Assembly (NCBI GenBank): GCA_947650365.1
Contig: OX393551.1
Location: 89,316,697 to 89,380,696 of the forward strand
DNA length: 64,000 bases
Origin: Chamaelirium japonicum
Lineage: Eukaryota; Streptophyta; Magnoliopsida; Liliales; Melanthiaceae
Reading direction: 5' to 3'
A program made the position numbers and the translations under genes. Of the stretch, positions 1,701-63,411 are shown one piece after another (the first letter of the stretch is position 1; each line of letters begins with the position of its first letter). Below the pieces are notes generated by a model, which saw only the letters and a list, made by a program, of their open reading frames with translations, made no database searches and was not told the origin of the DNA.

Positions 1701-1804
1701 GTTAGCTAGAGTGCATTCTAGCTGGCTTGGACTTTGGTGCAAAAAATAGCAACTTCCTGTTTAGAAAAACGGACACGAAGAAACTTGCCGCATGTTAGAG
1801 AAAA

Positions 1805-2098
1805 AAGTGACTGATCGGTCAATTTGGACCGATCGGTCAAATTTGACCGATCGGTCAAATTTTGACCGATCGGTCAAATTTTGACCGATCGGTCAAAATT
1901 CAACCGGTCAAGAATCGGGTGATCGGTCAAAAAACAGGGTTTTTTGACCGATCCAGTAGTATTTTTGACCGATCAGCTGAAATTTGGCCGATCGGTTAAA
2001 TTTTGACCGATCGGTCACTTTTGACCGATCGGTCAAATTTTGACCGATCGGGCAAAATTCAACCGGTTAAGAATCGAGTGATCGGTCAAAAAACAGGG
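1805..2098. repeat. Palindromic short tandem array (GACCGATCGGTC)
   Basis: The self-complementary core TTGACCGATCGGTCAA recurs about every 18-20 bp with small changes, interspersed with AACCGGTCAAG-type spacers. It forms the start of the 3' untranslated repeat block of the Tat element and grades into the 118-bp array. No coding role is seen. Confidence 0.88.
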
Positions 2099-3256
2099 TT
2101 TTTTGACCGATCCAGTAGAAATTTGACCGATCAGATAACTTTCGCCGATCGGACATGTCTGTCCGATCGGTGAAAAATATCCGGTCAAGGTTCGAGTGAT
2201 CGGCAAAAAACCTTGGTTTTTTGCCAGATCCAGTAGAAATTTGACCGATCAGATAACTTTCGCCGATCGGACATGTTTGTCCGATCGGTGAAAAATATCC
2301 GGTCAAGGTTCGAGTGATCGGCAAAAAACCTTGGTTTTTTGCCAGATCCAGTAGAAATTTGACCGATCAGATAACTTTCGCCGATCGGACATGTTTGTCC
2401 GATCGGTGAAAAATATCCGGTCAAGGTTCTAGTGATCGGCAAAAAACCTTGGTTTTTTGCCAGATCCAGTAGAAATTTGACCGATCAGATAACTTTCGCC
2501 GATCGGACATGTTTGTCCGATCGGTGAAAAATATCCGGTCAAGGTTCTAGTGATCGGCAAAAAACCTTGGTTTTTTGCCAGATCCAGTAGAATTTTGACC
2601 GATCAGATAACTTTCGCCGATCGGACATGTTTGTCCGATCGGTGAAAAATATCCGGTCAAGGTTCGAATGATCGGCAAAAAACCTTGGTTTTTTGCCAGA
2701 TCCAGTTGAAATTTGACCGATCAGATAACTTTCGCCGATCGGACATGTTTGTCCGATCAGTGAAAAATATCCGGTCAAGGCTCGAATGATCGGCAAAAAA
2801 CCTTGGTTTTTTTTGCCAGATCCAGTTGAAATTTGACCGATCAGATAACTTTCGCCGATCGGACATGTTTGTCCGATCGGTGAAAAATATCCGGTCAAGG
2901 TTCGAATGATCGGCAAAAAACCTTGGTTTTTTGCCAGATCCAGTTGAAATTTGACCGATCAGATAACTTTCGCCGATCGGACATGTTTGTCCGATCGGTG
3001 AAAAATATCCGGTCAAGGTTCGAATGATCGGCAAAAAACCTTGGTTTTTTGCCAGATCCAGTTGAAATTTGACCGATCAGATAACTTTCGCCGATCGGAC
3101 ATGTTTGTCCGATCGGTGAAAAATATCCGGTCAAGGTTCGAATGATCGGCAAAAAACCTTGGTTTTTTGCCAGATCCAGTTGAAATTTGACCGATCAGAT
3201 AACTTTCGCCGATCGGACATGTTTGTCCGATCGGTGAAGAAATATCCGGTCAAGGT
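2099..3256. repeat. 118-bp tandem array, about ten copies
   Basis: A highly regular array with period 118 bp. Each unit contains the dyad GGCAAAAAACC/GGTTTTTTGCC, the phrase GATCCAGTAGAAATTTGACC and the dyad CCGATCGGACA/TGTCCGATCGG. It lies between the antisense gene and the 3' LTR. Hypervariable tandem repeats in this position are known for Tat/Ogre-type elements and can seed satellite DNA. A homologous 119-bp unit is arrayed in the related element at 62786-63411. Confidence 0.95.
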
Positions 3257-3705
3257 AAAGTTCGAACCTGCCCTTCAGAGGAAGTTTGCTGCTTTGTTCT
3301 TCGATATTTTGGCAGAGTTTTGAACATTGATGGAGCTTGATTCTTCTTGTTTTGAATCCTTGATTTGCTTGATGGTTGCTTTGAACCGGCGGTCCGGTTT
3401 ACCTAGACCGGTGGCTTGATTAGACCGTTGGTTCATGCGGACCGGTAGGTCCGACGTTTCGCCTGGTCGCGACTGTTCGCCTGGTTTTGCGCTTGCTACG
3501 GATGGATGCCACGTGTACCTACAAAAACACGCGATTTGATATGGTGAAGACACGTGTCTTCTCGATTTGCGCACCTGTTTTACCCTGGGTACAAAAAGCT
3601 TTCACCGGCTGTCATTTTGCCTCACGCTTCCAAAATTTTTCGAAGTCCAGACTCTTGCTCTCTTGATTTCTGCTCTCTGTTCTCTGCGCTTGTCTGATCG
3701 GTGAA
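3257..3705 (+). promoter_or_regulatory. Promoter-like region of the antisense gene
   Basis: Between the repeat array and the antisense start codon. Two G-box cores (CACGTG) lie at 3510-3515 and 3551-3556, the second within the palindrome GACACGTGTC. A pyrimidine-rich stretch at about 3653-3690 resembles a plant leader. No strong TATA box was seen; TACAAAAAG near 3590 is a weak candidate. That this drives the plus-strand gene is inferred from position and motifs. Confidence 0.45.
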
Positions 3706-5616
3706 ATGGCTTCCTCGGGCAGTTCGAAGAAGTCCGGTACGACTCCCTCGAAGAGAAAGGGAAAGGAAATCGTCGAGGTCCAATCTCCTCCGAGGGGCCG
3801 TGGCAAAGGCAAGGCTGCTCTCGCTGAACTTGGCCAGCTTGGCAAAAGGCACCAAGGGGTTGGGTTTGCTTCGGCGCCATCAAGGCCAGAGTTCATCCCC
3901 AAGGTGAAGTTTGTTCTGGGCCCTCTCATGCCCCTGACAGAGGAGACGGAGTATATGTATAATGTAGGTAGCGAGCTCACGGATACGAAGAGAAAGAAGT
4001 GGCAAGCATTGCTCTCTTTCTTCACAGAAGGGAAGGGGGCGCAGCCTTCGCTCCCCAGCATTCAGACTGCATTCGGCATCGACAAGAAGACAGTCTTCAC
4101 CAATTTTGCTAGCAAAGAGCAGGTCATGGGAACTATAGTGACCGTTGGCCAACTCAACTGCGGTCTACGTCTGCCTCTGCCACCCTTCGCTGCCAGATTG
4201 CTGAATACTTCTGGCCTTTGCCCGGGGCAGGTCACTGGGAACGCATGGCGAATCATTTACGCCTTCTGCCGAGTGGAGTCAGATTTTCAAGAGGACTTGA
4301 GGGCCTGCTACTCCAGTATCCCGGTAGGAGAACCTGCCCGGATCGAGCTTGGATATTTCTTCTTTCACTATCGATGGAGCTACAGGAAGGACAGCCCTTT
4401 CTATAATTTGACTGGAATATCTCCACTGCGCCCACTCACCGATACAGTCCCTTCGGACAAATTGTATACTGACTGGCCAATCTCTGTCTCCGGCGCGTGG
4501 ACATCCATGTCAGTGCCAGACACCCCCCGAGACAGCGTACACGACGCAGTTAAGATGTACAGCGCTGGAGGCATCTTCGCCTGGAGTTCTGAGAGGGCGG
4601 GAGCCATAGATAATTTGTTCCTCGAGCTGACCTGTGGAACCAGGTCGTGGAAACAGTTTTCTAACTGTCCTGTGAGATATGGCAAGGCCAATCTCCTCCA
4701 CAGATCGAAGGACAGGTATGAGGACAACGAAGTCCTATACTCTGATTATGAAGAGGATCCCAGCTCGGGCAAGATCATCCGGAAGATTAGGGTCGAGAAG
4801 AAAATCTACAACGCGAGGCGCCGATTGCCCACTATGGATGAGAAGTTGGTTATCCAAAGAGGCCCCGCGAAGAAGAAGCGAAAAACACTCGTCAAGCCTA
4901 AGGAAGATGAAGAAGAAGAAAAGAAGAAGAACGAAGAGGAAGAAGAAAGGAAGAAAAATGAAGAAGAAGAAGAGACAGAGAATATCAGCCACGACATCAG
5001 TGGCAATGATGAAGACGAGGACGGCGAGGATGATACGTCTACTACCTCCTCCAATGGGGATGGTGAGAATGAAAACGGGGGTGGTGAGGAAGAAATTCCT
5101 CCCACCCCCACTGGTGGTGCAACAGGGGAGGATTCGATTCCAATTCCCATTGACGAGGTCAAAGCCCGTCAAATGGAAGAAGTGCTTGACATGGAAGGTG
5201 ATGGCCCAAAAGCGGTTCCCACCTACAAGTTCGACGAATTGAAGAAGCCGATGCGCTTCAAGATAAAGCTGTCGAAGAGTGCTGGGGTTGGAAGCAACCC
5301 CACGCCTCTGGATCAAATCCCCCCCGACGCTCCTCGCATTGAGGGAGCAACAATGAGTGGGGGTGTAGAGGTTGAGCAACCCCCTCCCCCCTCTCACTCT
5401 CTGCTCAACGAGGTGGAGGCCATGCTGGCCGGGCTTATCCAGCCAGGCGGGTCGCAAGAAGAGAGAGCCTCACCTCCCAGGAATGCTTCCCCCCCTGCTA
5501 ATTTGGAGAGGGGAAGTCGAGTGGGGGATGGGGCTCCTCAACCTCAACCAGCGCCAACCCCGACTCAGGAGAAATCAACTCCTAAGAGTGGCTCTGATCG
5601 TCGGAAAGGCAAATAG
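3706..5616 (+). CDS. Tat antisense accessory protein (Transposase_28-like, nuclear-type)
   Basis: A 636-residue protein encoded opposite to gag-pol, between pol and the 3' LTR, where several Tat elements carry an antisense gene. The start is the first ATG after the pyrimidine-rich leader. The N terminus is Ser/Lys-rich with a basic cluster (SKRKGKE). Residues about 145-225 resemble the plant 'putative gypsy type transposon' domain (Transposase_28), with PLPPFAARLL followed by GQVTGNAWRIIYAF. A nuclear-localisation-like AKKKRKTLVKPK near residue 387 precedes a long Glu/Lys then Asp/Glu-rich acidic tract to about 460, and the C terminus is Pro/Ser-rich and disordered. No enzyme motif is visible. 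Its function is unknown; a nuclear, possibly regulatory, role is inference from composition. Confidence 0.75.
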   Translation: MASSGSSKKSGTTPSKRKGKEIVEVQSPPRGRGKGKAALAELGQLGKRHQGVGFASAPSRPEFIPKVKFVLGPLMPLTEETEYMYNVGSELTDTKRKKWQALLSFFTEGKGAQPSLPSIQTAFGIDKKTVFTNFASKEQVMGTIVTVGQLNCGLRLPLPPFAARLLNTSGLCPGQVTGNAWRIIYAFCRVESDFQEDLRACYSSIPVGEPARIELGYFFFHYRWSYRKDSPFYNLTGISPLRPLTDTVPSDKLYTDWPISVSGAWTSMSVPDTPRDSVHDAVKMYSAGGIFAWSSERAGAIDNLFLELTCGTRSWKQFSNCPVRYGKANLLHRSKDRYEDNEVLYSDYEEDPSSGKIIRKIRVEKKIYNARRRLPTMDEKLVIQRGPAKKKRKTLVKPKEDEEEEKKKNEEEEERKKNEEEEETENISHDISGNDEDEDGEDDTSTTSSNGDGENENGGGEEEIPPTPTGGATGEDSIPIPIDEVKARQMEEVLDMEGDGPKAVPTYKFDELKKPMRFKIKLSKSAGVGSNPTPLDQIPPDAPRIEGATMSGGVEVEQPPPPSHSLLNEVEAMLAGLIQPGGSQEERASPPRNASPPANLERGSRVGDGAPQPQPAPTPTQEKSTPKSGSDRRKGK

Positions 5617-5716
5617 CCGAAGGTCGAAACATCAGGTAATTGAACTTAACTTGTTTTGAATGTCTTGTCTTTGAAGTTCGAAAATAATCTAACACTTTGA
5701 TTCCCTTTGATTGCAG

Positions 5717-6457
5717 GTACGCCTGCTGGATTGACTCCGACAATAAAAAACTTGGGTGACGTTGATATCAACCGCCCCACTGCTGCGATCAGAAAACTCA
5801 TCAATCTTCCGAGTGCCACTTTGGATGAAGCTTTTGATAGAATTAACCTGGTGGTAGGTGCATCTACTTGATCGATCATTTGAATCGTATCTTTCTTCAG
5901 AATAATTCAACTCTTTTGTTCTTTTGCAGAACTCAGCACTTATGAATGTTGCAACCAAACTCTCTTTGAGGGCGGGAGCAAAAGAAGCTGTGGCTGAAAT
6001 AAATCAGTTGACCGCGGAGAGAGATGAGCTAAGAGATCTCCTGACTTCGAAGAAAGCTTCTCTCAAAACCAAGATTAAGGAACTTCGGGAGGGAAAGCTG
6101 GAGATCAAAGGGCTGAAGGATCGATGTGAGGCACAGAGTCACGAACTCGAATCTTTGAAGACTCGACTCTCAAAGGTTGAGGATGTGTCCTGTGGCCGTA
6201 CCATCGAGATCCAAGAGCTGAAGCAACAACTTGCTACCCAGCACGCTGCCTTTGCTGCCAGAGAAGAGACTTCGAAAAAGGCACTGGAGCATGCGTTGTC
6301 TGAGTGCAAGGTTTACAAGGAGACAGCAGAGAAGGCGGCAGAAGCGCTCAGGACTCATGTAGCTAGCGTCCGATCCTCCAAGGCATCAGTGGCGAGTAAA
6401 GCTCGTCCTGGATCTGAAGGGGAGAAGTCGCATGCGAAGAGTGTGGCCAAGCCCTGA
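5717..6457 (+). CDS. Further open segments of the antisense gene, ending in a coiled coil
   Basis: Downstream of 5616 two more open segments lie on the same strand, at about 5717-5850 and 5924-6457. The stretches before each (about 5632-5716 and 5851-5929) start with GT and end in pyrimidine-rich CAG, so they look like small plant introns. The last segment encodes about 177 residues rich in Glu, Lys and Leu with heptad spacing (AEINQLTAERDELRDLL onward), a clear coiled coil, followed by a Ser/Lys-rich tail. Whether these belong to one transcript with 3706-5616 cannot be told from sequence alone. Confidence 0.55.
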
Positions 6458-6675
6458 GACTTTTCTTCTTCTTTGTTGTTGTACTTGTAAATTTTTGAAA
6501 TGTAACAGCTCCTTGTATCTGACATATTTTGATGATAATAGAAGACATCTTTTTGTATTTGAAACTTGCACTTCTTTTGAGTTGAATGTCTTTGAATGTT
6601 GAGTTCTGGAATGCTATTTGACATGATTGAGTATTCATACATTTGAATGTAAATTGAATACGCATATACTTGAAT

Positions 6676-6990
6676 GTAAGGGGTTGAATCGCTACTCAAT
6701 CACCCAAACTTTGTAACTTTGAAAATTGAATTTGAATTCGAATAACATTTGAATGTAAGGGGTCGAGTCGCAACTCAAACTCCCAAACCTGTTAGACGAT
6801 ATCGAATTGATTGAAATTGGATATTGAATTTCGGAGGTCAGTTTAACATTCGCTAGTAAGGGGTCGAGTCGCAACTCTAACACCCAAACATGTTAAGACC
6901 TGGTAACTTGAAAATGGTCAGTTTTTAACATTTGCTAGTAAGGGGTTGGGTCGCAACCCTAACACCCAAACTTGTTAAAAGACCTGGTAA
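6676..6990. repeat. Four degenerate 80-100-bp repeats between convergent genes
   Basis: The phrase GTAAGGGGTCGAGTCGCAACTC, or a close variant, followed by ACCCAAAC.TGTTA, recurs at about 6677, 6754, 6859 and 6942. The block separates the 3' end of the plus-strand antisense gene (6457) from the 3' end of the minus-strand pol gene (7096), so it lies where two convergent transcripts would meet. A terminator or polyadenylation role is only a guess. Confidence 0.8.
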
Positions 6991-7095
6991 TTTGAATATG
7001 GATAACTTGTAATTGCTTCAGAACTTGGATTGAAAATCAGAACACTTGTACACTTGAACATTTGAAAGAGAGCTTTATTCATCACAGAATTTACA

Positions 7096-10000
7096 TTATG
7101 GATAGAACAACTTGAGGTGTCTAGAATTCCAAGCTCGAGGCAATCTATCCCCTTCTGGTGTAATCAGTCTGTAAGAACCTTTGCCTCCAACTGACTCAAT
7201 AATATATGGACCTTCCCAGTTGGGAGCAAGCTTTCCACTGCTGTGTTCTTTGGTATTGTAGAAAACTGCTCTAAGAACTAAACTACCTACTGGGAATTGT
7301 CTCTTGTGGACTTTCTTGTCATAGGCTCTTTTGATCTTCTGTTGATATTTGGCCACACGAAGTGATGCTAGATCTCGCAGTTCTTCAGAGAAGTCTAGAT
7401 TATTGATCCGAAGTTCTTCATTGACTCCTTCTTCAACAGCTTTAGTCTTCAAAGTACTTGATATGTTTTCTGTTGGGAGTACTGCCTCTGATCCATATGT
7501 TAGGCGAAAAGGCGAGAACCCAGTTGATCTTCTCGGAGTTGTGCGATACCCCCAAAGAACTTCAGGTAGGACTTGCTCCCACAATCCTTTCTTATCATTG
7601 AGTTTCTTCTTGAGTATACCAAGAATAGCTCTGTTGGAGGCTTCTGCTTGGCCATTGCATTGAGGATATCTTGGAGTTGAATAGAATAGCTTGATACCAT
7701 GGTTCAGACAGAACTCTCGAAACTTGTCGGAGTCAAACTGAGCTCCATTGTCTGCAATGAGAACTTGAGGTGTACCAAATCTTGAGAAGATGTTGTGCCG
7801 AATGAATTTGATCACTTCGTCGTCAGTCTCTCGGAAGAGGGGCACAGCTTCAACCCATTTGGTGAAGTAATCTGTGGCCAGCAGTAGGTACTTCTTCTTG
7901 CTTGGAGTTGGAGGGAAAGGACCCAAGAAATCTAACCCCCATTGATGGAAAGGCCAAGGACTTGATAATTGATGAAGTTCATCTGCAGGGAGATGGATAG
8001 CTCGAGCGTGTCGTTGGCAAGGCTCGCATCTTTGAACGACTTGTTGAGCATCCTTTGCCATTGTTGGCCAGTAGTACCCTTGTAGCTTCGTCTTGGCTTC
8101 AAGGGATCTTCCTCCCGAATGATTTCCACAAGCTCTGGAGTGGATATCAATCAGGATTGCCTGTGCTTGTTCAGGACCAAGGCACTTGAGTAACATCCCG
8201 CTGTGAGATTTGAAATATAAATCTTCACCTTGTAAAGTGTAGCATGGGAGCTTCCTTTGAAGCCTTCGGGCTTGATTTGGATCTTCTGGCATTTTGCCAT
8301 GTTTGAAGAAGTCAAGAATTGGTCGTCTCCAATCTTCAAGCTGATCTCCACCCCCAGATCCTTTTGTAGTAGTAAGAATCTGTTGATCGGGGATGGTCTT
8401 GGGCACTTCTTGATAATCGATCTGTATTTGCCTTCCTCCGAGTGAGTCTCCAAGAACTGAGGCAGCATTAGCTAAGGCATCTGCTTCTCGGTTCTCTGCT
8501 CTGGGGATTTGAATGAATTCAGCGCTAGTAAAACGTTGTTGAAGACGTCGTACTAAGGCCAAGTAGAGTTGCATTCTTTCTTCTCGAGCTGTGTACTCTC
8601 CATTGATTTGCCTTATGATCAATTGGGAGTCGCTGTATATGATGATTTGATCTACCCCCAGAGATTCTGCCATTTCGAGTCCGGAAATGAGTGCTTCATA
8701 TTCAGCTTCGTTGTTGGTGGCATTAAACCCAAGGAGAGTGGCCTTCTGGAGATGATCAAGTTCGGGGGATATTAAGACTATCCCAGTTCCCGAACCGATC
8801 GAACTTGATGCTCCATCAGTATATAGCTTCCAAGGAGGAGTTGCAGCAATAACTTCAAGACTTAGATCAATTTTCGTTGTAGGATTGATCGGAGGCTTAT
8901 CCTCATCTTCCAAGCACATATCGACATCTTCTTCCCAAGTGATGGGGTCTTCAACTGGAAAGTCAGCTAGAAAATCAGCAATTGCTTGACCTTTGATAGA
9001 AGTGCGAGATTCGAATTGAATCCCCAGAGCACTCATTTCGATCACCCATTTGGTCATTCGACCAGCTCGACCAGCTTTGTCAATGATATCTTTGAGTGAG
9101 TGTTCTGAAATGACAGTAATCTGGTGGGAGACGAAGTACGGTTGAAGACGACGCGATGCAGTGAGCAAGGCCAATATGACCTTCTCAGTTTTTGAGTAGC
9201 GAGTCTCAGCCGGAAGAAGAGTGTGGCTGATGTAGTAGACTGGATGTTCGATGCCTTCTCTTCTACTGACTAAGACCGCGCTGATTGCTTGATCGGTCAC
9301 GGCAAGGTAGAGCCACAAGTCTTCTTTTGGAAGTGGAGCAGTCAGGATAGGAGCTTGCACCAGATATTTCTTGATGCTTTGAAATGCCTCTTCACAGATT
9401 GGACTCCAGCCAGATGTATCCGCCTTTCGTAGTTTGTCGAAGAGAGGCTTGCACTTGTCTGAAGATTTTGAAATGAATCGATTGAGTGCTGCTAATCTTC
9501 CAGTGAGACGTTGAACTTCTTTTCGATTTGTAGGTGAAGGCATATCGATGATGGCTCGAATTTGATCAGGATTGGCTTCAATACCTCTCCTGGTCACAAG
9601 ATGACCCAGGAATTTGCCAGATTGAACTCCGAAGGCGCATTTGGCTGGATTGAGCTTCATTCGATACTTTCGAAGGACTTGGAAGGTTTCAGCCAGATCA
9701 GATAGATGTTTGCTCCGAACGGAACTCTTGGTGAGGAGATCATCGACATAGACTTCGACGTTGCGACCGATCTGATCTTCGAACATTTTGGTGACTAGCC
9801 TTTGATAGGTGGAACCAGCATTTTTGAGGCCGAATGGCATGACATTGTAGCAATAAAGGCCTCGGCTAGTCACAAAACATGTCTTCTCTTGATCATCAGC
9901 GTGGAGTGGAATTTGATTGTATCCAGAATACCCATCCATGAAAGACAACAGCTCGTGGCCAGCAGTGGCGTCGACGAGTTTATCTATCCTTGGCATTGGA

Positions 10001-10323
10001 AAAGGATCTTTGGGGCAAGCCTTGTTGAGATTGGTAAAGTCGATGCAGACTCTGACTTTCCCATTCTTCTTTGGAACAGCCACTATGTTAGAGATCCAAG
10101 TTGGATACTCTACTTCTCGGATGAATCCGGCTGCGAGTAGCTTGGTAATTTCTTCTTGAACAGCAACTTGGAGCTCTGGTCGAATGGTGCGAGGCTTTTG
10201 CTTGACGGGCTTCACCTCTTCTTTGATCGCAAGTCGGTGACAAGCGTCATCTGGATTGATCCCAGGCATGTCTTCGAAGCACCATGCGAAGACGTCGATA
10301 TTGGACTGGAGGAAGGATACCAT
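7096..10323 (-). CDS. pol: Tat pol: reverse transcriptase, RNase H, second RNase H, integrase
   Basis: One open frame of 1075 residues. The reverse transcriptase carries FMDGYSGYNQI (residues about 128-138) and the catalytic YVDD (192-195). A degenerate Ty3-type RNase H/connection region follows (about 300-430). A second RNase H of archaeal type begins near residue 505 with LYTDGASSSIGSG and continues with NNEAEYEAL and YSDSQLI. The integrase has an N-terminal HHCC zinc region (about 730-780, ending CEPCQRH), then a DDE core with LDFLGPF, ADNGAQF and QAEASN. A GPYIIESV segment closes the C-terminal domain and no chromodomain is seen. The doubled RNase H is typical of the Tat lineage. It copies element RNA into DNA and inserts it; expression relative to gag is presumably by the LTR transcript. 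Confidence 0.95.
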   Translation of the reverse strand: MVSFLQSNIDVFAWCFEDMPGINPDDACHRLAIKEEVKPVKQKPRTIRPELQVAVQEEITKLLAAGFIREVEYPTWISNIVAVPKKNGKVRVCIDFTNLNKACPKDPFPMPRIDKLVDATAGHELLSFMDGYSGYNQIPLHADDQEKTCFVTSRGLYCYNVMPFGLKNAGSTYQRLVTKMFEDQIGRNVEVYVDDLLTKSSVRSKHLSDLAETFQVLRKYRMKLNPAKCAFGVQSGKFLGHLVTRRGIEANPDQIRAIIDMPSPTNRKEVQRLTGRLAALNRFISKSSDKCKPLFDKLRKADTSGWSPICEEAFQSIKKYLVQAPILTAPLPKEDLWLYLAVTDQAISAVLVSRREGIEHPVYYISHTLLPAETRYSKTEKVILALLTASRRLQPYFVSHQITVISEHSLKDIIDKAGRAGRMTKWVIEMSALGIQFESRTSIKGQAIADFLADFPVEDPITWEEDVDMCLEDEDKPPINPTTKIDLSLEVIAATPPWKLYTDGASSSIGSGTGIVLISPELDHLQKATLLGFNATNNEAEYEALISGLEMAESLGVDQIIIYSDSQLIIRQINGEYTAREERMQLYLALVRRLQQRFTSAEFIQIPRAENREADALANAASVLGDSLGGRQIQIDYQEVPKTIPDQQILTTTKGSGGGDQLEDWRRPILDFFKHGKMPEDPNQARRLQRKLPCYTLQGEDLYFKSHSGMLLKCLGPEQAQAILIDIHSRACGNHSGGRSLEAKTKLQGYYWPTMAKDAQQVVQRCEPCQRHARAIHLPADELHQLSSPWPFHQWGLDFLGPFPPTPSKKKYLLLATDYFTKWVEAVPLFRETDDEVIKFIRHNIFSRFGTPQVLIADNGAQFDSDKFREFCLNHGIKLFYSTPRYPQCNGQAEASNRAILGILKKKLNDKKGLWEQVLPEVLWGYRTTPRRSTGFSPFRLTYGSEAVLPTENISSTLKTKAVEEGVNEELRINNLDFSEELRDLASLRVAKYQQKIKRAYDKKVHKRQFPVGSLVLRAVFYNTKEHSSGKLAPNWEGPYIIESVGGKGSYRLITPEGDRLPRAWNSRHLKLFYP

Positions 10324-10476
10324 GTCTTGCGCTTCTGCGTCGCTAAGACCGGTACCAATAAATGTTTGTTGAGGGAGATCTCCGCTGCCTATGTTGATCG
10401 GGATGATTTCTTCAATTGAAGGTGATGCTTCCCATTCGATTGGTGGAGGTTTGGTCAGCGGAATCTCCTTTGATTG

Positions 10477-12945
10477 CTATTTGGAAGAGGGACCAGCTTC
10501 ATCTCGTGGCCGCTTTGGAGGAGCAATATTGATCTTTCGATCTGTTTTAGCAGCAGCAGCTTCACAAGATCTTCCAGCTTGCTGATCGCCTCGAATGCAG
10601 ACGATACCTTCTCCAGTTGCAAACTTGAGTAGTTGATGGTAAGAGGAGGAGATGGCATTGATCTGATGGAGGAATGGTCGCCCAAGAATGGCGTTGTAGC
10701 TAGACATTCCTTCGACGATCGCAAACCTCACCGAGACTCGAGTCTCTCGGCTGAGGTCGATGGTGAATCTGGATTCGCCCACTGTGATGCTTTGTTCGCC
10801 ATTGAAGCCGGTGATCACAGTGGGGACGACGTCGAGACTTTGATACTTATGTCCCAGACGTTTGAAACAGTCGGAGAACATAATGTCAATGGAGCTTCCA
10901 GTGTCTATGAGGATTCGATTGACGGTGCTTCCGTCGATGATGAGTTTCAAGACCAGGGGGTCTCGATGGGGAGTGTGAACTCCTTGAAGATCGGTGTCAT
11001 TGAAGACTATGGATGGCCAAGCCAGACCTTCGATGGGCTTCTCGATCCAGGTATCTTCTTTGTTTGCAGTAGATCGAACATGGAAGATGCGTCGAACCTG
11101 CCGATCGACTTCCTTTCCGGTCAAAGCTTGATTGTGCAAGGTTCCATGAATGCCAAAGACATTGGCATTCACAGAAATTGGTTGCCGGTTGGAAGAGATT
11201 AGATGTATCCAACATACTTCTTTCCCCTTGGCAGAGGTTCGACGTTGATCGTGCCCGTTGTTGACGAATTCTTGAAGGTGGCCTTCTCGTAGTAAGTCTT
11301 CAAGATGGAATTTCAGCCGAAAACACCGATCGGTGGAATGGCCGTGACTTCGATGGAATTCACAGTAGACTGTTTTGTCTGCTGTGAATTTGGAATTTGG
11401 TTGAAGAGGATTGGGCCTCCGAAGATACTCGTCGTGTTGAATACGGTCGAGTATCTGCTCGACTGGCATGTTCCACTCGGTAAAAGTGGTCTTTGTTGGA
11501 GATCGACGCCTATCATTCTTTGATCTTTTGTTGGCCGGAGGAGCTGCTGCTTCAGTGTTGTGAGCCTTTGCAGCATATTTAGGCGCTTCTCTTTCAGCAG
11601 GCCTTCTCTTAGTTTCTCGCCCTTTTCGAGCGACTTGATCGTCTTCCACCTCAATCTCCCTCTGAATTCGATCGAACATAGCTCCCAGAGAAGGAGGGGG
11701 ATTGCGGATGAAGTCGTTGTAGATGTGTAGATCAAAGCGGAGAGCGTTCTGGAAAGCCAACATGATGGCTTCATCATCCAGATGCCTTCCAGAGAGAGCA
11801 GCATGCTCGTTGCGAAACCTCCTCGTGAAGCTGCGGAGAGTCTCATCTGCACCCATCCTTAGTCGATATAGAGAGTCGAGCTTCTTCTCGGGTTTCAGGT
11901 TGAGCTGGTAATGCTGCACAAAGAGGTTAGCCAAAACACCGAACTGGGTAATGGACCCAGCTCGGAGGTTGTGATACCAGTCGAGTGAAGGCTCATCGAG
12001 ACTTCCCGCGAAGGTGCGGCAGAGCACGTTGTTTTCCTCTTCGTGTGGCGTTAGAGCTTGCTTGAAGGCAAGTATATGGAGGCTTGGATCTCCTCGGACG
12101 CAGTTGAATTTGGGGAGGGTAGGAGTTCTCCATCCTCTTGGAAATGCTGATTCGAAGAGGCTTCGATGAAGTGGCCCGGCAGAAGAGTAGCCATCCCTAC
12201 GACCGTGTCCTCGACCTAGAGGTGGGTCAAGAGGTAAGATCGCAAGGTCTTGTTCTGGCATCGGAGTGTTCGCCGGTTGAAGTCGATGTCGAAGGTCCGA
12301 TCCAAGTCCACGTTGGAGTGGAATGGAAGGGGAGACTCTACTCTTTGAAGGAGCGCCTTTCATTTGGTGCTTCCTTGGCAGGTTGAGCTTCGATGGTGCT
12401 CTTTTGTCGCAGTTACGACCAGATGAAGATTGGGAGGACTCGTCTTCAAGACGATCCCAGACACTCTGCTTCCAAGGAGCAGCAGAGGGAGTTGGGTCGC
12501 GTCGAATCCTCTCGAGAGCATCAGTGCCCATTGACCTCCGTTGTTCGGAGTAAATTGAATGTCGAGGAGGATCAACCCTCTCGCTTGCGGAGGGGATCGG
12601 AATAGCAATTCCAGCTTCGGAAGCTGCCTTCTTCAGAGCATCCCTCTCAGCAGTGAGGGTGGCGTTTTGTTTCGCCAATTGGAGTAGTTGGAAATCGATT
12701 GCAGAGATCTGGTAAGTCGATGGAGGATCTTCAGCAGGAGCAGGGACAGTCTGCCCAATTGATTGATGAGGATGAGGGGCGATCGGTCGATCGACTGATC
12801 TTCCGCTTCCTGAGTGAACCCCCATCTCGGGGACAGCAAGGGGCTGCCCGAAGTTGAGCCTTTGACTCATTGAACGAGTCTCAGGACGAGGTTGATGTTG
12901 AGTGTTACTTCCTTCTGGTTGACCCTGATGTTTGGTTCTCGCCAT
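10477..12945 (-). CDS. gag: Tat gag and aspartic protease
   Basis: One open frame of 822 residues on the genomic RNA strand. The N-terminal 250 residues are low-complexity and Arg/Ser/Pro-rich. The capsid-type gag domain (about 270-420) contains FPRGWRTPTLPKFN and SLDWYHNLRAGSI. A zinc-binding-like CEFHRSHGHSTDRC lies near residue 555. The C-terminal part is the retropepsin, with the active-site motif ILIDTGSSIDIMF near residue 680 and the second-half motif AILGRPFLH. Fusion of protease to gag, with pol starting separately about 150 bp downstream, fits Tat-type organisation. It makes the virus-like particle and processes the polyproteins. Confidence 0.94.
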   Translation of the reverse strand: MARTKHQGQPEGSNTQHQPRPETRSMSQRLNFGQPLAVPEMGVHSGSGRSVDRPIAPHPHQSIGQTVPAPAEDPPSTYQISAIDFQLLQLAKQNATLTAERDALKKAASEAGIAIPIPSASERVDPPRHSIYSEQRRSMGTDALERIRRDPTPSAAPWKQSVWDRLEDESSQSSSGRNCDKRAPSKLNLPRKHQMKGAPSKSRVSPSIPLQRGLGSDLRHRLQPANTPMPEQDLAILPLDPPLGRGHGRRDGYSSAGPLHRSLFESAFPRGWRTPTLPKFNCVRGDPSLHILAFKQALTPHEEENNVLCRTFAGSLDEPSLDWYHNLRAGSITQFGVLANLFVQHYQLNLKPEKKLDSLYRLRMGADETLRSFTRRFRNEHAALSGRHLDDEAIMLAFQNALRFDLHIYNDFIRNPPPSLGAMFDRIQREIEVEDDQVARKGRETKRRPAEREAPKYAAKAHNTEAAAPPANKRSKNDRRRSPTKTTFTEWNMPVEQILDRIQHDEYLRRPNPLQPNSKFTADKTVYCEFHRSHGHSTDRCFRLKFHLEDLLREGHLQEFVNNGHDQRRTSAKGKEVCWIHLISSNRQPISVNANVFGIHGTLHNQALTGKEVDRQVRRIFHVRSTANKEDTWIEKPIEGLAWPSIVFNDTDLQGVHTPHRDPLVLKLIIDGSTVNRILIDTGSSIDIMFSDCFKRLGHKYQSLDVVPTVITGFNGEQSITVGESRFTIDLSRETRVSVRFAIVEGMSSYNAILGRPFLHQINAISSSYHQLLKFATGEGIVCIRGDQQAGRSCEAAAAKTDRKINIAPPKRPRDEAGPSSK

Positions 12946-13090: not shown

Positions 13091-13839
13091 TGTGGGGGAA
13101 AATCTTCGTGCCGACCCGAAGACTCTCGCAGCACCAGTCAATTGAATGTTCGTGTTGACGTCGAAGATCGTTGGTCGATCTGTTGATCGACTGTTGATCG
13201 AAGTTGAAGCTTTTGATTTGCAAACAGAGAGATGCAATCAGAGAGAGTTTGACACGAGAAGTGATCTCGGAGTTCAGCCGAAGCCTACGTCTCCGTGCTA
13301 TAGGGTGCAACCCGAATTCACTAACACTTATATTGAAGTGATCTCGACAGGCCGAGTATCACTGTAAACACTGATCTTTCTAAAAGAAGATCAAAGGGAG
13401 ATGGTAGATCGGAAGTGTGAAATCCCAGAGCTCTGGTTCTGAAAGTCAGATCTCAGAGTGGAAATCAGATTTGTGGATCTGGATTTCGATCCTTTTACAT
13501 TCGAAGGCACTGCTATTTATAGGCATTCCGGGTGGCGAATGGCGGTTTCTACTGCAGTATCTGGGGATCCTCCAGGTAAAGTTGCGAGCCCTGCGGTTGT
13601 CTTCGGGGGCCCACCAGGCAAGGCCGATGGGTCCCGTTGTAGTCCTCGTGGGTCCACCAGGCAGGGCCGGTGGGTCCCGCTGTAGTCCTCGTGGGCCCAC
13701 CAGGCAGGGCTGGTGGGTCCCGTGGTAGTCCTCGTGGGCCCACCAGGCAGGGCTGGTGGGTCCCGTGGTAGTCCTCGTGGGCCCACCAGGCAGGGCTGGT
13801 GGGTCCCGTGGTAGATTTATGCCAAAATTTGCACCCACA
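13091..13839 (-). repeat. 5' LTR of the young Tat element
   Basis: A 749-bp partner of the LTR at 938-1686, almost identical. It contains the five 43-bp U3 repeats (13604-13814) and the TATAAATA box (13514-13521, minus strand). It is followed by the right ATCAT duplication. Confidence 0.96.
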
Positions 13840-13844
13840 ATCAT
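13840..13844. repeat. Target-site duplication ATCAT, right copy
   Basis: Exact copy of 933-937, directly after the CCCACA end of the LTR. Confidence 0.93.
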
Positions 13845-58450: not shown

Positions 58451-59158
58451 CAAGTCTCTAGTTGGTTAAGCTACTTATTGGTTTGAAGGAATTAGGTTTC
58501 CTCATCGCCTGCATGTTCCCGATCTGCTCCCTTCTTCCCACCAAGGGGAAAGCAAAAGGACGGCAACAAGGCCCGCACTCTCTGCAGCTAGAGCCCGAGC
58601 AGCTCGGACAGCCCGCGGCCTCCACTAGGCCTGTCAACCTTGCTCTTTTCAGAGGGTACTTGCTCCGCCCGGCCCTCCAAAGTCCTCAAAAACCCCAACC
58701 TTCATTGAGGGCCGGGCAGTTTTTATAAGCCTTCCATGCTAAGAGCCGGGTTAGGAAAACCTTAAACCCCGTTATGCCCTTTGTATAAATCTATAAAACA
58801 TGGCACGGCGCTTTCGTGCTGACTAGACAAAATGGCACAAAAAGCTGACTAGACAAAAAAATTGCTGACTAGACAAAACGAAACAAATTGATTAGACAAA
58901 AAAAATAACTACGCATCATCACAACCATCCATACTTAAAGGAATAGAAGCTTCACTTAATGGCTCATTCAGAAATTAAATAAATGCTCTATATAGAATAT
59001 TAATTGCATGCATATAAGGTATTAATGGCTGGGTGTAAGGGACGGTTATGTAAGGAGATTAATGGAGATAGAGAGAGGATCACAATGGGTGTTTGCGGGA
59101 TTTAGATAAGGAGAGAGGGAGGGAGGTTCAATTACATGGCAAGAGAGAGAGAGATATC
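58451..59158. other. No gene recognised
   Basis: Contains GGCCCGCA/CCGGGC-rich patches near 58570-58720, then AT-rich sequence with repeated GACTAGACAAAA phrases (58820-58890). No coding evidence. Confidence 0.5.
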
Positions 59159-59552
59159 TGTGGGGGAAAATCTTCGTGCCGACCCGAAGACTCTCGCAGC
59201 ACCAGTCAATTGAAGGTTCGAGTTGACGTCGAAGATCGTTGTCCGATCTGTTGATTGAAGTTGAAGCCTTTTGATATGTGAATTGAAAGTGATATGCAAT
59301 CAGAGAGATTGTGACACGAGATGTGATCTCGGAGTTCAGCCGAAGCCTACGTCTCCGTGCTATAGGGAGCAACCCGAATTCACTAACACTTTAGTTGAAG
59401 TGACCTCGACAGGCCGAGTGCCACTGAAAACCCTCTGATCTCTTCGAAGGAGAAAAGAAGATCAAAGAGAGATGGTAGATCAGAAGTTGGAAATCCCAGA
59501 GCTCTGGTTTTTAGAATTCAGAGTTCCATCCTTTTACATTCGAAGGCTCTGC

Positions 59553-59560
59553 TATTTATA
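59553..59560 (-). promoter_or_regulatory. LTR TATA box (TATAAATA)
   Basis: Same position relative to the U3 repeats as in the 749-bp LTRs. Confidence 0.7.
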
Positions 59561-59610
59561 GGATTCTCTGGGAGGAATTCTAGGGTAAATGGCGGTTTCT
59601 GCTGTCGTAT

Positions 59611-60293
59611 CTGGGGGTCCTCCAGGCAGGGCAGGTGGGTCCCGTGGTAGTCCTCGTGGGCCCACCAGGCAGGACTGGTGGGTCCCGCTGTGGAACTCGG
59701 GGGCCCACCAGGCAGGGCCGGTGGGTCCCGCTGTGGTACTCGGGGGCCCACCAGGCAGGGCCGGTGGGTCCCGCTGTGGTACTCGGGGGCCCACCAGGCA
59801 GGGCCGGTGGGTCCCGCTGTAGTCTTCGGGGGCCCACCAGGCAGGGCCGGTGGGTCCCGCTGTAGTCTTCGAGGGCCCACCAGGCAGGGCAGGTGGGTCC
59901 CGCTGTGGTACTCGGGGACCCACCAGGCAGGGCCGGTGGGTCCCGCTGTAGTCTTCGGGGGCCCACCAGGCAGGGCCGGTGGGTCCCGCTGTGGTACTCG
60001 GGGGCCCACCAGGCAGGGCCGGTGGGTCCCGCTGTGGTACTCGGGGGCCCACCAGGCAGGGCCGGTGGGTCCCTCTGTGGTACTCGGGGGCCCACCAGGC
60101 AGGGCCGGTGGGTCCCGCTGTAGTCTTCGGGGGCCCACCAGGCAGGGCCGGTGGGTCCCGCTGTGGTACTCGGGGGCCCACCAGGCAGGGCCGGTGGATC
60201 CCGCTGTAGTCTTCGGGGGCCCACCAGGCAGGGCCGGTGGGTCCCGCTGTGGTACTCGGGGGCGCACCAGGCAGGGCCGGTGGGTCCCGCTGT
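59611..60293 (-). repeat. 43-bp U3 repeat, about 16 copies
   Basis: Units such as GGTGGGTCCCGCTGTGGTAC and CGGGGGCCCACCAGGCAGGG repeat every 43 bp. Two spacer versions alternate (GTGGTACTCG and GTAGTCTTCG). Open frames of 200-300 residues on both strands arise because the unit has no stop codons. Confidence 0.95.
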
Positions 60294-60439
60294 TTGCAGA
60301 CTTCTTGCCAAAATTTGCACCCACAGTTACCCCCTCCAAGTTAGCTAAGAGGCCACCTTGGCTGGCTTGGACTAGTGGTGCAAAGCTAACGACCCCCTGC
60401 CACACACGCAGAGGAGCTCTGTCGAATGTTTAGCGAAAA

Positions 60440-60960
60440 AATAGACTGATCGGTCAAATTTGATCGATCGGTCAAATTTTGACCGATCGGTTAAAATTTG
60501 GCCGATCGGACAAATTTGACTGATCGGTCAAATTTTGACCGATCGGTCAAATTTTGACCGATCGGTTAAAATTTGGCCGATCGGACAAATTTTGACCGAT
60601 CGGTCAAATTTTGACTGATCAGTCAAAATTCAACCGGTCAAGGATCGGGTGATCGGTCAAAAAACATGGTTTTTTGACCGATCCAGTAGAGATTTTGACT
60701 GATCGGTTGATTTTTTGTTCGATCGGACAAATTTTGACTGATCGGTCAAATTTTGACCGATCGGTCAAATTTTGACCGATCAGTCAAATTTTGACCGATC
60801 GGTTAAAATTTGGCCGATCGGACAATTTTGACCGATCGGATAAATTTGACCGATCGGTCAAATTTTGACTGATCAGTCAAAATTCAACCGGTCAAGGATC
60901 TGGTGATCGGTCAAAACACAACGTTTGGCGCCAGATCCAGTAGGATTTTGGCCGATCAGG
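60440..60960. repeat. GACCGATCGGTC palindrome array of the related Tat
   Basis: TTTGACCGATCGGTCAAA and near variants every 18-20 bp, interrupted by the CCGGTCAAGGATC and GATCCAGTAG phrases of the longer unit. Confidence 0.9.
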
Positions 60961-61140
60961 TGGAGGTTGGGAGAATTAGAGGATCGAGGTTTTACCGATC
61001 GGGCGAATTTGATTGATCGATCGAATTCGATCGATCGGAGGCACTGATCGAGTGAATTTCACCGATCGGGTGAAATTCACCGATCGGAAAAAACAGATCA
61101 AGAGAGAAGATTTGATTGATCGGGAGGAGGTTATTGATCA

Positions 61141-61490
61141 GGTGCAAATCGTCGATTGGGTGCAAATCGCCGATCATGATCAGGCTGCTGATCGGGTGCA
61201 AATCGTCGATCGGGTGCAAATCGCTGATCAAGATCAGATCGCTGATCAGGTGCAAATCGCCGATCGGGTGCAAATCGCTGATCAAGATCAGATCGCTGAT
61301 CAGGTGCAAATCGCCGATCGGGTGCAAATCGCTGATCAAGATCAGATCGCTGATCAGGTGCAAATCGCCGATCGGGTGCAAATCGCTGATCAAGATCAGA
61401 TCGCTGATCAGGTGCAAATCGCCGATCGGGTGCAAATCGCTGATCAAGATCAGATCGCTGATCAGGTGCAAATCGCCGATCGGGTGCATT
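61141..61490. repeat. 54-bp tandem array
   Basis: GATCAAGATCAGATCGCTGA followed by TCAGGTGCAAATCGCCGATC recurs every 54 bp, about five to six times. Because 54 is divisible by three it yields 18-residue repeat proteins in several frames, which I treat as artefacts. Confidence 0.93.
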
Positions 61491-61699
61491 TTGCCGATCG
61501 GGTGAATTTCACCGATCGGGCAAAAAACAGCCGGTCAAAGAAGGGTTGATCGGCAAAATACCCCCGTTTGGCGCCAGATCCAGTAGTATTTTTCGCCGAT
61601 CAGATAGAAAACGAAGGGGAAGAAGGGGATCGAGTTTGCCGATCGGTCAAATTTGACCGATCGGTCAAATTTGACCGATCGGAGGCACTGATCGGGTAA

Positions 61700-62785
61700 T
61701 TTTGTACTAAATCTGGAGAAAAAACCCCCTCCGCGACCGATCGCTGAAATCTTGACCGGCTGAATATGCCCAATCGGTCGCCAGCAGCCGATCTGAGGCG
61801 GAGTCGCCGTTCTCGGTGCAGTGGGAGATGGCGATTGGTAGAGGGACTTCGATCCGTCGGTTGCCGGGGAGTTGCGGCCGATCGGTGATGAGATCGGGAG
61901 CGGCGGAGCTGAGGTTGGAGCCGAGGGAGACGAGGGGTTTAGAGTTCCTCTGCTGTCTTGATCTGAGTGGAGTACGGGTTGGTTGATCACGGGTTGGCTC
62001 ACGGGTTGGTTGATCACGGGTTGGTGGACGCCAGCTTGTCACCCACGTGGGGGCAACATGTGGTCTGGACTTGGCTCACGGGTTGGTTGATCACGGGTTG
62101 GTGGACGCCAGCTTGTCACCCACGTGGGGGCAACATGTGGTCTGGATATTTGGTGCTGGTCTTTAAGGGAAGGCCGTGACAGCTTGATGCAATGAAGGCT
62201 GTGATCAAGTGGGAATGAGAGGCGGAGTGTTGGGTGGATCGGCGCACATGCATGAATGCATGCATGGAAGTTCCATGCATGATGGAAGGGAAGGCTGTGA
62301 TAGCTTGATGCACAAATGATGGCATTGATTATGGCCATTGATTCACACCTTTGATGCTTGCTTCAAGGGTCAAAAGTTGACAACTCAGGTGAAGGCTATG
62401 TAAACGTTTGGTGTATACACCACGCGTGCTCCCAACCCGGCACGCTATGGTCGTTTGATTTGAATTATTCTTGATCAAACACCATACAACCAAAAGGTAT
62501 TTCAAATGGACTGAACACCCAGATCGGTCAAACTTGGATCTCCTCTTTCTAGTTGGAGGAATCTTCTGCACTGAAATTGGGTCCCGCTACCAATGCGAAT
62601 CCCGCTCGTTGATGACATGCTACCGGGATTGTGGAATTAATAGACCAAGCTCCCGTTATTTGCGAGCATGGATAATGTTCGATAATGTAGCGCTCCTGGA
62701 TGTTGTGACAAGATCCCTATCACAGTTGTTGGTGCCTGCTAACTTTAGGAAAGCAATTGAATGCCTTGCTACTGAATAGTGTTGA
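61700..62785. other. Unique-looking segment between repeat arrays, with a 77-bp duplication
   Basis: About 1.1 kb lacking the GACCGATCGG motif except at its edges. A 77-bp unit (TTGGCTCACGGGTTGGTTGA..., including the G-box palindrome CCCACGTGGG) is repeated at 61994 and 62071. CATGCATG-type palindromes lie near 62245-62285. Open frames here show no known family. It may be captured or inserted DNA inside the element's 3' region. Confidence 0.5.
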
Positions 62786-63411
62786 GGCCAAATTATCCGG
62801 TCAAGGTTCGAGTGATCGGCAAAAAACCTTGGTTTTTTGCCAGATCCAGTAAAAAATCGACCGATCGAATGATTTTAGCCGATCGGACAAGTTTGTCCGA
62901 TCGGTAAAAAATTATCCGGTCAAGGTTCGCGTGATCGGCAAAAAACCTCGGTTTTTTGCCAGATCCAGTAGAAAATCGACCGATCGAATGATTTTAGCCG
63001 ATCGGACAAGTTTGTCCGATCGGTAAAAAATTATCCGGTCAAGGTTCGAGTGATCGGCAAAAAACCTCGGTTTTTTGCCAGATCTAGTAGAAAATCGACC
63101 GATCGAATGATTTTAGCCGATCGGACAAGTTTGTCCGATCGGTAAAAAATTATCCGGTCAAGGTTCGCGTGATCGGCAAAAAACCTCGGTTTTTTGCCAG
63201 ATCCAGTAGATAATCGACCGATCGAATGATTTTAGCCGATCGGACAAGTTTGTCCGATCGGTAAAAAATTATCCGGTCAAGGTTCGAGTGATCGGCAAAA
63301 AAACCTCGGTTTTTTGCCAGATCTAGTAGAAAATCGACCGATCGAATGATTTTAGCCGATCGGACAAGTTTGTCCGATCGGTAAAAAATTATCCGGTCAA
63401 GGTTCGAGTGA
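62786..63411. repeat. 119-bp tandem array, about five copies
   Basis: Same architecture as the 118-bp unit at 2099-3256: GGCAAAAAACC/GGTTTTTTGCC dyad, GATCCAGTAGAAAATCGACC, then the CCGATCGGACA/TGTCCGATCGG dyad. Copies are highly alike within the array. Confidence 0.95.

Follow-up and report, generated by a model that had tools for sequence, protein, structure and literature searches.

An apparent three-exon antisense gene in a Retand/Tat-type retrotransposon of Chamaelirium japonicum

Results

An antisense gene beside pol

In a young LTR retrotransposon of Chamaelirium japonicum we find, on the strand opposite to gag-pol, what looks like a three-exon gene, confirming the observation of a first-pass annotation made from the sequence of the window (the whole stretch of 64,000 nucleotides analysed here). 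The exon/intron structure, selection at the protein level and conservation of an upstream block make it likely, in our judgement, that this is an accessory protein gene of the element, with its own promoter and two spliced introns, the product of which would act in trans in the nucleus.

The host element lies on the minus strand, with its 3′ LTR at 938-1686 (TGTGGG...CCCACA ends) and its 5′ LTR at 13091-13839, flanked by a 5-bp target site duplication (ATCAT, at 933-937 and 13840-13844). The two LTRs are 99.6% identical, with 3 mismatches over 749 positions, in agreement with the young age first proposed. Pfam profiles place gag and aspartic protease at 10477-12945 and the pol domains (RT, RNase H and integrase) at 7096-10476, both on the minus strand and in gypsy order. 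The span from pol to the 3′ LTR is 5.4 kb (7096 to 1686) and holds a TRP28-like ORF antisense to pol; in a Retand survey (PMC11963269), this region measures 2.9-6.6 kb and carries an antisense TRP28 ORF. By its organisation, the element is assigned to the Retand/Tat-type Ty3/gypsy LTR retrotransposons. The antisense gene and pol are convergent and separated by a spacer (6458-7095) in which a 55-nt repeat occurs four times.

Exons and introns

The predicted gene comprises exon 1 (3706-5635, plus strand, as are all its parts), with a TRP28-like region, a KKKRK patch and an acidic tract; intron 1 (5636-5716; 81 nt, phase 1, GTAATT...TTGCAG, with CTAAC 28 nt before its 3′ end); exon 2 (5717-5853; 137 nt); intron 2 (5854-5929; 76 nt, phase 0, GTAGGT...TTGCAG); and exon 3 (5930-6457), encoding a charged, coiled-coil-like C-terminal region and the stop codon. 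We compared this model in two sets of copies. One comprises 30 near-identical copies (window included) chosen for their exon 1 protein score, a choice that biases exon 1 towards synonymous differences. The other is a pattern set, the first 20 places among the matches listed; all lie on contig C1 and match perfectly over 32 nt across the intron 2/exon 3 boundary, so that this set is biased towards copies with that acceptor. The model was further compared across nine families of one genome, namely the window and eight others that are 53-76% identical to it in exon 3 amino acids.

Intron 1 has GT-AG ends in 50 of 50 copies (30/30 near-identical, 20/20 pattern-sampled) and in all nine families. 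For intron 2 the counts are likewise 30/30 and 20/20, the latter 20 having been selected by this very acceptor. Across the families both donors are present in 9/9, as is the acceptor of intron 1, and the acceptor of intron 2 is present in 8/9, its loss in locus L063 being the sole broken splice site. Intron positions and phases are kept throughout, although lengths vary from 81 to 95 nt (intron 1) and from 71 to 76 nt (intron 2) by shifts that are not multiples of three. The introns are AT-rich (61-71% A+T in the nine families; 47-54% in the window exons), and intron 1 has a branch-site-like CTRAY motif 28-32 nt from its 3′ end in eight of nine families. Exon 2 is 137 nt long in 9/9 families (55-76% amino acid identity to the window), and exon 3 measures 528, 549 or 591 nt. 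An in-frame methionine is absent from exon 2 in the window and in two of the eight other families, so that there exon 2 needs its neighbouring exons. With conserved ends, a continued frame and AT-rich composition, and the L063 acceptor as the exception, the two segments have the properties of spliceosomal GT-AG introns, which bears out the earlier description of an intron-bearing gene with intron-like GT...AG segments.

Three spliced-junction patterns found no match in the genome, compared to 967 for an unspliced intron 2/exon 3 pattern, which is the one positive control and covers that boundary in the window family; more diverged families would escape these patterns. Intron 2 varies little in the pattern set; this was considered as a sign of constraint and rejected, since a site at the intron 2/exon 3 boundary had served to select those copies.

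The long open frame noted in the first-pass annotation does not hold for the window copy, where an in-frame stop at 5614-5616 lies in exon 1, with 19 bases between it and the donor, and does hold for most sampled copies. The remaining 29 near-identical copies have no exon 1 stops, and 6 of the 20 pattern copies are broken. Of the eight family loci, two carry exon 3 stops (L063 and L065), and in two more (L005 and L006) the match to exon 1 spans two frames.

Selection on the exons

Among the window copy and the 20 pattern copies, variable sites fall mostly on third codon positions: 84/76/309 for positions 1/2/3 in exon 1 (p 2.5e-49), 7/6/18 in exon 2 (p 0.014) and 21/9/52 in exon 3 (p 1.5e-8), with 49/27/154 in 1.6 kb of pol for comparison (p 8e-27). 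In exon 1 the share of third positions is larger among variants shared between copies (215/293) than among singletons (94/176; p 1.6e-5). Between-group dN/dS is 0.104 in exon 1, 0.358 in exon 2 and 0.097 in exon 3; over nine families it is 0.233 for exon 2 and 0.178 for exon 3, and for the N-terminal part of exon 1, compared pairwise in four families, five of the six values are 0.07-0.13 and the remaining pair is saturated. Exon 2 is weakly constrained, with dN/dS of 0.55 and a non-significant third-position excess (p 0.078) in the near-identical set.

Alternative reading frames served as controls (6 copies out of the near-identical 30 versus 19): four of the five per exon piece gave values of 1.2-8.4. 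The antiparallel frame with shared third positions gave 0.16 and 0.20, yet is interrupted in the window by 10 and 4 stops. A sense-strand ORF as the source of the codon signal is ruled out by these controls. Third-position excess and low dN/dS thus support preservation of the protein by selection, weakest in the short exon 2, as had been proposed. Neutral dN/dS had been named as an outcome that would speak against the gene; this check was run, and the between-group values (rounded, 0.10, 0.36 and 0.10 for exons 1-3) are non-neutral and do not refute it.

The encoded protein

The window protein matches PF04195 (Transposase_28) at residues 145-190 with 22.4 bits (E 1.5e-4), below the curated Pfam cut-off of 26.2. 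Its relatives L001-L008, which are 71-84% alike to it over the first 397 residues, score 33.1-34.9 bits, and we therefore regard it as a divergent PF04195 relative that by the Pfam rule is no formal member; the Transposase_28-like domain first described is to this extent upheld. The same genome has 137 PF04195 matches, and those among the matches listed exceed the cut-off.

The basic patch described as NLS-like is KKKRK in 5/5 aligned exon 1 proteins from 10 loci tried, the other five giving no long open exon 1 by start anchor, and the acidic tract has 34 D/E in 84 residues. The basis for regarding the protein as probably nuclear is this conserved patch together with the published localisation of Grande GENE23 (PMC7264820). 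The C-terminal end may be a coiled coil, as proposed: the first 150 residues of exon 3 are proline-free, and its Pfam matches, all below cut-off, include several coiled-coil-type families. The heptad pattern was equalled by 21 of 300 shuffles and is suggestive only. An AlphaFold model of window 3886-4905 as a single sequence reached a pLDDT of 32.5 and was set aside, and the best hit of a PDB sequence search (E 0.18) was taken as chance.

Upstream block and palindrome array

Upstream of exon 1 lies a conserved putative promoter block (3486-3575, plus strand) with two CACGTG G-box cores, at 3510 and 3551, as the first-pass annotation had noted. Both G-boxes are present in all nine families, 41-42 bp apart, and 61 of 91 block columns are invariant in 9/9. 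Mean identity to the window across families is 0.942 in the block versus 0.748 before it (3370-3470) and 0.688 after it (3576-3705). A 51-bp core of the block occurs at 2,275 genome places at up to 3 mismatches, and its reversed control at none. This conservation of paired G-boxes fits the claim of a self-standing gene; the likeness of the block could in part be due to recombination, which the family shows. G-boxes are recognised by bZIP and bHLH factors and are linked to light or stress. The block is followed by a putative TATA zone and 5′ leader (3576-3705, plus strand), in which a TATA-type motif lies 38-39 nt past the start of the second G-box in six of nine families and is absent from the window copy. 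The leader is pyrimidine-rich, as described (72% C+T over 3636-3700).

Between this promoter and the 3′ LTR sits a tandem array (1808-3256), in which 19/37-bp units precede 10.6 copies of a 118-bp unit at 2002-3256 (TRF). The palindrome CCGATCGG occurs 27 times in 1829-3227, and hairpins with stems of at least 9 bp number 28 in 1701-3505, compared to a mean of 0.05 in 20 Markov shuffles. Arrays with perfect 9-20 bp hairpins lie upstream of the gene in 9/9 families and in a second element in the window. The sequence CCGATCGG itself is found in eight of nine families (not in L006), and hairpin arms show matched changes on both arms between families. By analogy, and tentatively, the spliced antisense protein may recognise its own palindrome or hairpin array, either as DNA (VANC-like or HBZ-like self-recognition) or, within the genomic transcript, as structured RNA (Rev-like export or protection). 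We hold this to be doubtful. Quasi-palindrome correction during copying could yield the same matched arm changes.

Discussion

Overall, our analysis supports the interpretation of the first-pass annotation. In the mechanism we propose, RNA polymerase II would transcribe the gene from its own promoter with paired G-boxes, the transcript would be spliced twice, and intact copies would yield one protein of about 865 residues, in which a TRP28-like region, the KKKRK patch and the acidic tract are followed by a charged, coiled-coil-like C-terminus. The introns would persist through transposition because the RNA that is reverse-transcribed runs the opposite way, where these segments are not introns. 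The most likely role of the protein would be a trans effect on its own family of elements inside the nucleus, at the level of transcription, silencing or integration; lineages that retain a functional copy would then spread better.

Alternatively, the plus-strand unit might work as RNA, its transcript pairing with the genomic RNA and feeding or modulating small-RNA silencing, with the frames as by-products. This idea is raised in a review (PMC7264820), and since the gene is antisense to the 3′ portion of the genomic RNA, long double-stranded RNA could form if both strands are transcribed. However, the exons are under protein-level constraint and in frame over two introns, which RNA alone would not need, and we consider an RNA role unlikely as the sole explanation, though compatible as a second one.

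Recent capture and passive carriage of a host gene (transduction) is less likely still. Introns and a promoter of its own would be host-like, but eight other families of the genome share the three exons and the upstream block, and antisense TRP28 ORFs are reported in 97% of Retand clusters, in eudicots and monocots (PMC11963269). Pol adjoining the gene was confirmed in 20/20 pattern copies, a check confined to that set. An ancient capture is compatible with the data.

We find it very improbable that three separate unspliced ORFs are each translated alone, with the GT-AG segments as spacers. ORF tools do give exons 1 and 3 as distinct frames in the window, and the survey counts antisense ORFs by ORF finder, with Smc-type domains apart from TRP28 (PMC11963269). 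Against this, exon 2 (45 codons) is methionine-free in the window and keeps its length and phase in 9/9 families, and the intron ends and the intron 1 branch-site-like motif are conserved despite length shifts not divisible by three. A chance ORF with chance GT-AG, open merely because the element is young (3/749 LTR differences), is refuted by conservation at the family level, where identity at exon 1 four-fold sites falls to 35-41%, and by the third-position bias, and we give it next to no credence.

Antisense TRP28 ORFs of Retand elements are already known, and antisense genes are reported in nearly all recent clusters of the lineage (PMC11963269). The favoured accessory gene resembles these ORFs in being antisense, between pol and the 3′ LTR and of PF04195-type similarity, and its element resembles theirs in the tandem array that many clusters have beside the 3′ LTR and in gag-pol as one or two ORFs. 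In contrast to those ORF-finder ORFs, a single predicted three-exon gene here unites the TRP28 ORF with a coiled-coil-like exon, and some antisense ORFs of Smc/Mis12 type in that survey may be such 3′ exons. The words 'intron', 'coil' and 'G-box' are absent from its text. A literature search of limited scope found no published account of any plant LTR retrotransposon with a spliced antisense gene, nor a printed one of these introns or of a TRP28 fusion to a coiled-coil-like exon.

Other likenesses are of description. For gene23 of maize Grande, likewise an antisense accessory gene, an upstream promoter of its own, a nuclear protein and ubiquitous antisense transcription have been reported (Gomez-Orte 2013, via PMC7264820); the first two are known for gene23 and putative here, and the comparison is by description rather than sequence. 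HBZ-type HTLV genes (named in PMC11963269) are, by analogy only, antisense genes for a nuclear regulatory protein in the 3′ part of a retroelement, but their promoter is in the 3′ LTR (PMC7264820), unlike that proposed here. VANC anti-silencing proteins of VANDAL transposons (PMC5735166) are also element-encoded, by elements with short motifs in fast-evolving tandem repeats, a likeness again of description. Ogre, a related plant gypsy element, has a functional spliced intron (PMC6317226).

The conserved double G-box block offers a testable promoter and a guess at when the gene is on. Under the spliced model the TRP28 ORF and the coiled-coil-like ORF are parts of the same protein, and cloning either ORF by itself would give a truncated product. 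Finally, the antisense introns are a natural marker, in that any genomic copy lacking them through splicing would be proof that the antisense mRNA had been reverse-transcribed.

The element and the structure of its antisense gene

At the start of the window lies an LTR retrotransposon, nearly complete and in minus-strand orientation, with the 5-bp duplication ATCAT on both sides. Its minus-strand LTRs (938-1686 and 13091-13839) are 99.6% identical over 749 bp; the 3 differences, at a plant substitution rate of 1.3e-8 per site per year, give an age of about 0.15 million years, in keeping with the first-pass annotation, which had called the element young. A 43-bp tandem repeat of 5.1 copies lies within each LTR (1442-1661, 13595-13814). 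Gag and protease (12945-10477) and pol (10476-7096) are encoded on the minus strand, and the 5.4 kb between pol and the left LTR contain the antisense gene on the plus strand.

Exon 1 of this gene starts at ATG 3706. Exon 2 (5717-5853) follows an 81-nt GT-AG segment that interrupts a codon after its first base, and exon 3 (5930-6457) a 76-nt GT-AG segment that falls between codons; both introns have 66-69% A+T, compared to 47-54% in the exons. We compared the gene with three samples, all drawn from the genome that contains the window (1.52 Gb in 3253 contigs). The near-identical set comprises the window and 29 other copies; these 30 are the ones with listed loci among 69 that a protein search scored. 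The pattern set consists of the first 20 listed of 967 genome matches to a 32-nt site spanning the intron 2/exon 3 boundary, all exact and all on contig C1; in 20 of 20, pol adjoins the antisense gene in the same arrangement. The nine families are the window and the best-scoring 8 of 137 matches to PF04195 (Transposase_28), with exon 3 proteins 53-76% alike to that of the window.

The intron-like segments noted at first pass proved to be well kept. GT-AG is present at both introns in 30/30 near-identical and 20/20 pattern copies, although the latter count is uninformative for the intron 2 acceptor, through which the pattern set was picked; this selection leaves the remaining three splice sites unaffected. 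Across the nine families, window included, donors are conserved in 9/9 for each intron and acceptors in 9/9 and 8/9, the sole exception being the intron 2 acceptor of locus L063. Intron 1 measures 81-95 nt and intron 2 71-76 nt in these families (73 nt for intron 1 in L032, one of the near-identical copies), while exon 2 is 137 nt in all nine and exon 3 is 528, 549 or 591 nt. In 8 of the 9, intron 1 has a CTRAY motif 28-32 nt upstream of its 3' end; no regular motif of this type was found in intron 2 across all families.

The frame had been described as long and open. This does not hold for the window copy, where exon 1 ends at an in-frame stop (5614-5616), but does for the 29 other near-identical copies, in which it reaches the donor at 5636; the window copy is thus broken and intact copies exist. 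All three exons are open and the splice sites intact in 29/30 near-identical and 14/20 pattern copies. Among the eight other family loci, L063 and L065 have stops in exon 3 and the exon 1 match is split between two frames in L005 and L006, so individual copies do decay.

The genomic RNA for reverse transcription would be the minus-strand transcript, in which the antisense introns read backwards and would remain unspliced, so that they would persist. Copying of the antisense mRNA into DNA would be expected to leave intronless genomic copies. Spliced exon 1/2 and exon 2/3 junctions of the window family, and the exon 2/3 junction of a second family, had 0 genome matches at up to 3 mismatches; the 967 matches to the window family's unspliced intron 2/exon 3 sequence serve as a positive control for that boundary alone.

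Selection on the antisense protein

Across the window and the 20 copies of the pattern set, sites that vary split over codon positions 1/2/3 as 84/76/309 in exon 1, 7/6/18 in exon 2 and 21/9/52 in exon 3; 1.6 kb of pol, for comparison, gives 49/27/154. The near-identical set gives 16/11/53, 3/1/7 and 7/6/18 for the three exons. Uniform use of codon positions was rejected in every case but near-identical exon 2 (p 0.078). Between the groups (30 against 19 copies, L056 being omitted since it groups with the window), dN/dS is 0.104, 0.358 and 0.097 for exons 1-3, and 0.066 for the first 396 codons of exon 1, arguing against neutrality and for the earlier view that the gene has been kept by selection. 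Values for the three exons are 0.156, 0.553 and 0.165 within the near-identical set and 0.127, 0.259 and 0.150 within the pattern set; the nine-family comparison puts exon 2 at 0.233 and exon 3 at 0.178. For the N-terminal part of exon 1, pairwise comparison of the window, L001, L003 and L007 families gave 0.07-0.13 in 5 of 6 cases; the remaining pair was saturated, and pairs involving the window came close to saturation.

As frame controls, 6 of the 30 near-identical copies were compared with the 19 over two pieces of exon sequence. In each piece, dN/dS was 1.2-8.4 in four of the five other frames; the antiparallel frame with common third positions gave 0.16 or 0.20, and in the window copy it has 10 stops in one piece and 4 in the other. 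Variants shared between copies fall more often at third positions of exon 1 than singletons do (215/293 versus 94/176, p 1.6e-5). Pol shows the same lean (p 3e-4), and in exon 3 it lacks significance (p 0.17). This pattern fits selection acting on the source lineage, with inserted copies drifting afterwards. We regard it as very nearly certain that the antisense gene is protein-coding and selected and that its introns are real.

Putative promoter block, probable recombination and palindrome arrays

The two G-box cores proposed upstream are CACGTG boxes at 3510 and 3551, both kept in 9/9 families at a spacing of 41 bp (42 in L004). In the block around them (3486-3575), 61 of 91 columns do not vary and identity to the window averages 94.2%, against 74.8% upstream and 68.8% downstream; 2,275 genomic sites match its 51-bp core with no more than 3 mismatches (0 for a reversed control). 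Four-fold sites of exon 1 are only 35-41% identical between the window and three families, and introns and exon 3 are closer, making the region a mosaic; recombination may therefore add to the likeness of the block between families. A TATA-type motif lies 38-39 nt past the start of the second G-box in 6/9 families and is absent from the window copy. The second G-box reads ACGTGTC, which we take to be an ABRE-like core, and on this basis we would guess at stress- or light-linked bZIP control.

In subfamilies that are mosaic over 3700-5500, third-position divergence is 0.24 in the N-terminal part of exon 1 versus 0.09 in pol, and a further copy (L054) joins exon 1 of one subfamily to a 3' part close to that of the window copy, pointing to recombination within the antisense gene. 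Between subfamilies about 8% apart in the gene, 150-bp bins across 6401-7150 are 97-99% identical. The spacer between the convergent genes holds a 55-nt repeat four times at spacings of 79-101 (6662-6978), and the minus strand of 6620-6995 has a folding z of -3.21, equalled by 1 of 100 shuffles.

Upstream of the putative promoter, 1808-3256 is a tandem array of CCGATCGG-type palindromes and perfect hairpins of 9-20 bp. There are 27 copies of CCGATCGG in 1829-3227; the rest of the window has one in gag and 35 in 60483-63374, within a second related element. That element (59150-64000) has an LTR matching the first at 82-86%, with hairpin arrays after it; a G-box pair 41 bp apart was not seen there up to the window end. 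Similar arrays lie at 60437-63411 and upstream of the L001-L008 genes, and CCGATCGG precedes the first G-box in all families but L006 (8/9). Perfect hairpins (stem at least 9, loop at most 8) number 3-28 per family stretch; the averages over 20 Markov shuffles were 0.00-0.20. The arms have changed in matched fashion between families, for example between the window and L001. In eight distinct 26-base units from the window, its second element and L001-L007 (those of L003 and L006 are identical; that of L008 could not be aligned), 95.5% of cells pair and two-sided changes occur at 2 of 11 pairs. Of 500 shuffles, 1 reached the observed covariation score, 155 the count of pairs with two-sided changes and 112 the count of additional pair types. 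Either selection on the palindromes or copying errors that render them perfect would be compatible with these results.

Relation to known elements and possible role

Antisense TRP28 ORFs with predicted DNA binding are described in 97% of Retand clusters (PMC11963269). The antisense gene of the maize element Grande is reported to have a promoter of its own, to be transcribed and to encode a nuclear protein, the authors calling for study of spliced antisense transcripts (PMC7264820). Ogre elements carry an intron on the sense strand (PMC6317226). Among the passages searched we found no account of conserved antisense introns, of a fusion of TRP28 and coiled-coil-like exons or of a double G-box block; an earlier description in Grande is possible.

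Of the protein features first proposed, the NLS-like basic patch followed by an acidic tract stands: KKKRK is kept in 5/5 aligned exon 1 proteins (window, L040, L001, L003, L007; five of the ten loci tried lacked a long open frame from the start anchor used), and the acidic tract lies downstream. The Transposase_28-like domain is retained as a resemblance of the exon 1 product to PF04195 that scores under the cut-off, and of the coiled-coil end there remains a charged, proline-poor exon 3 product whose heptad signal is only suggestive. Structure prediction and a PDB search with the antisense protein were both uninformative. The antisense product is most likely an accessory protein of the element, nuclear and acting in trans, and its main role would probably be nuclear and in the service of the element.
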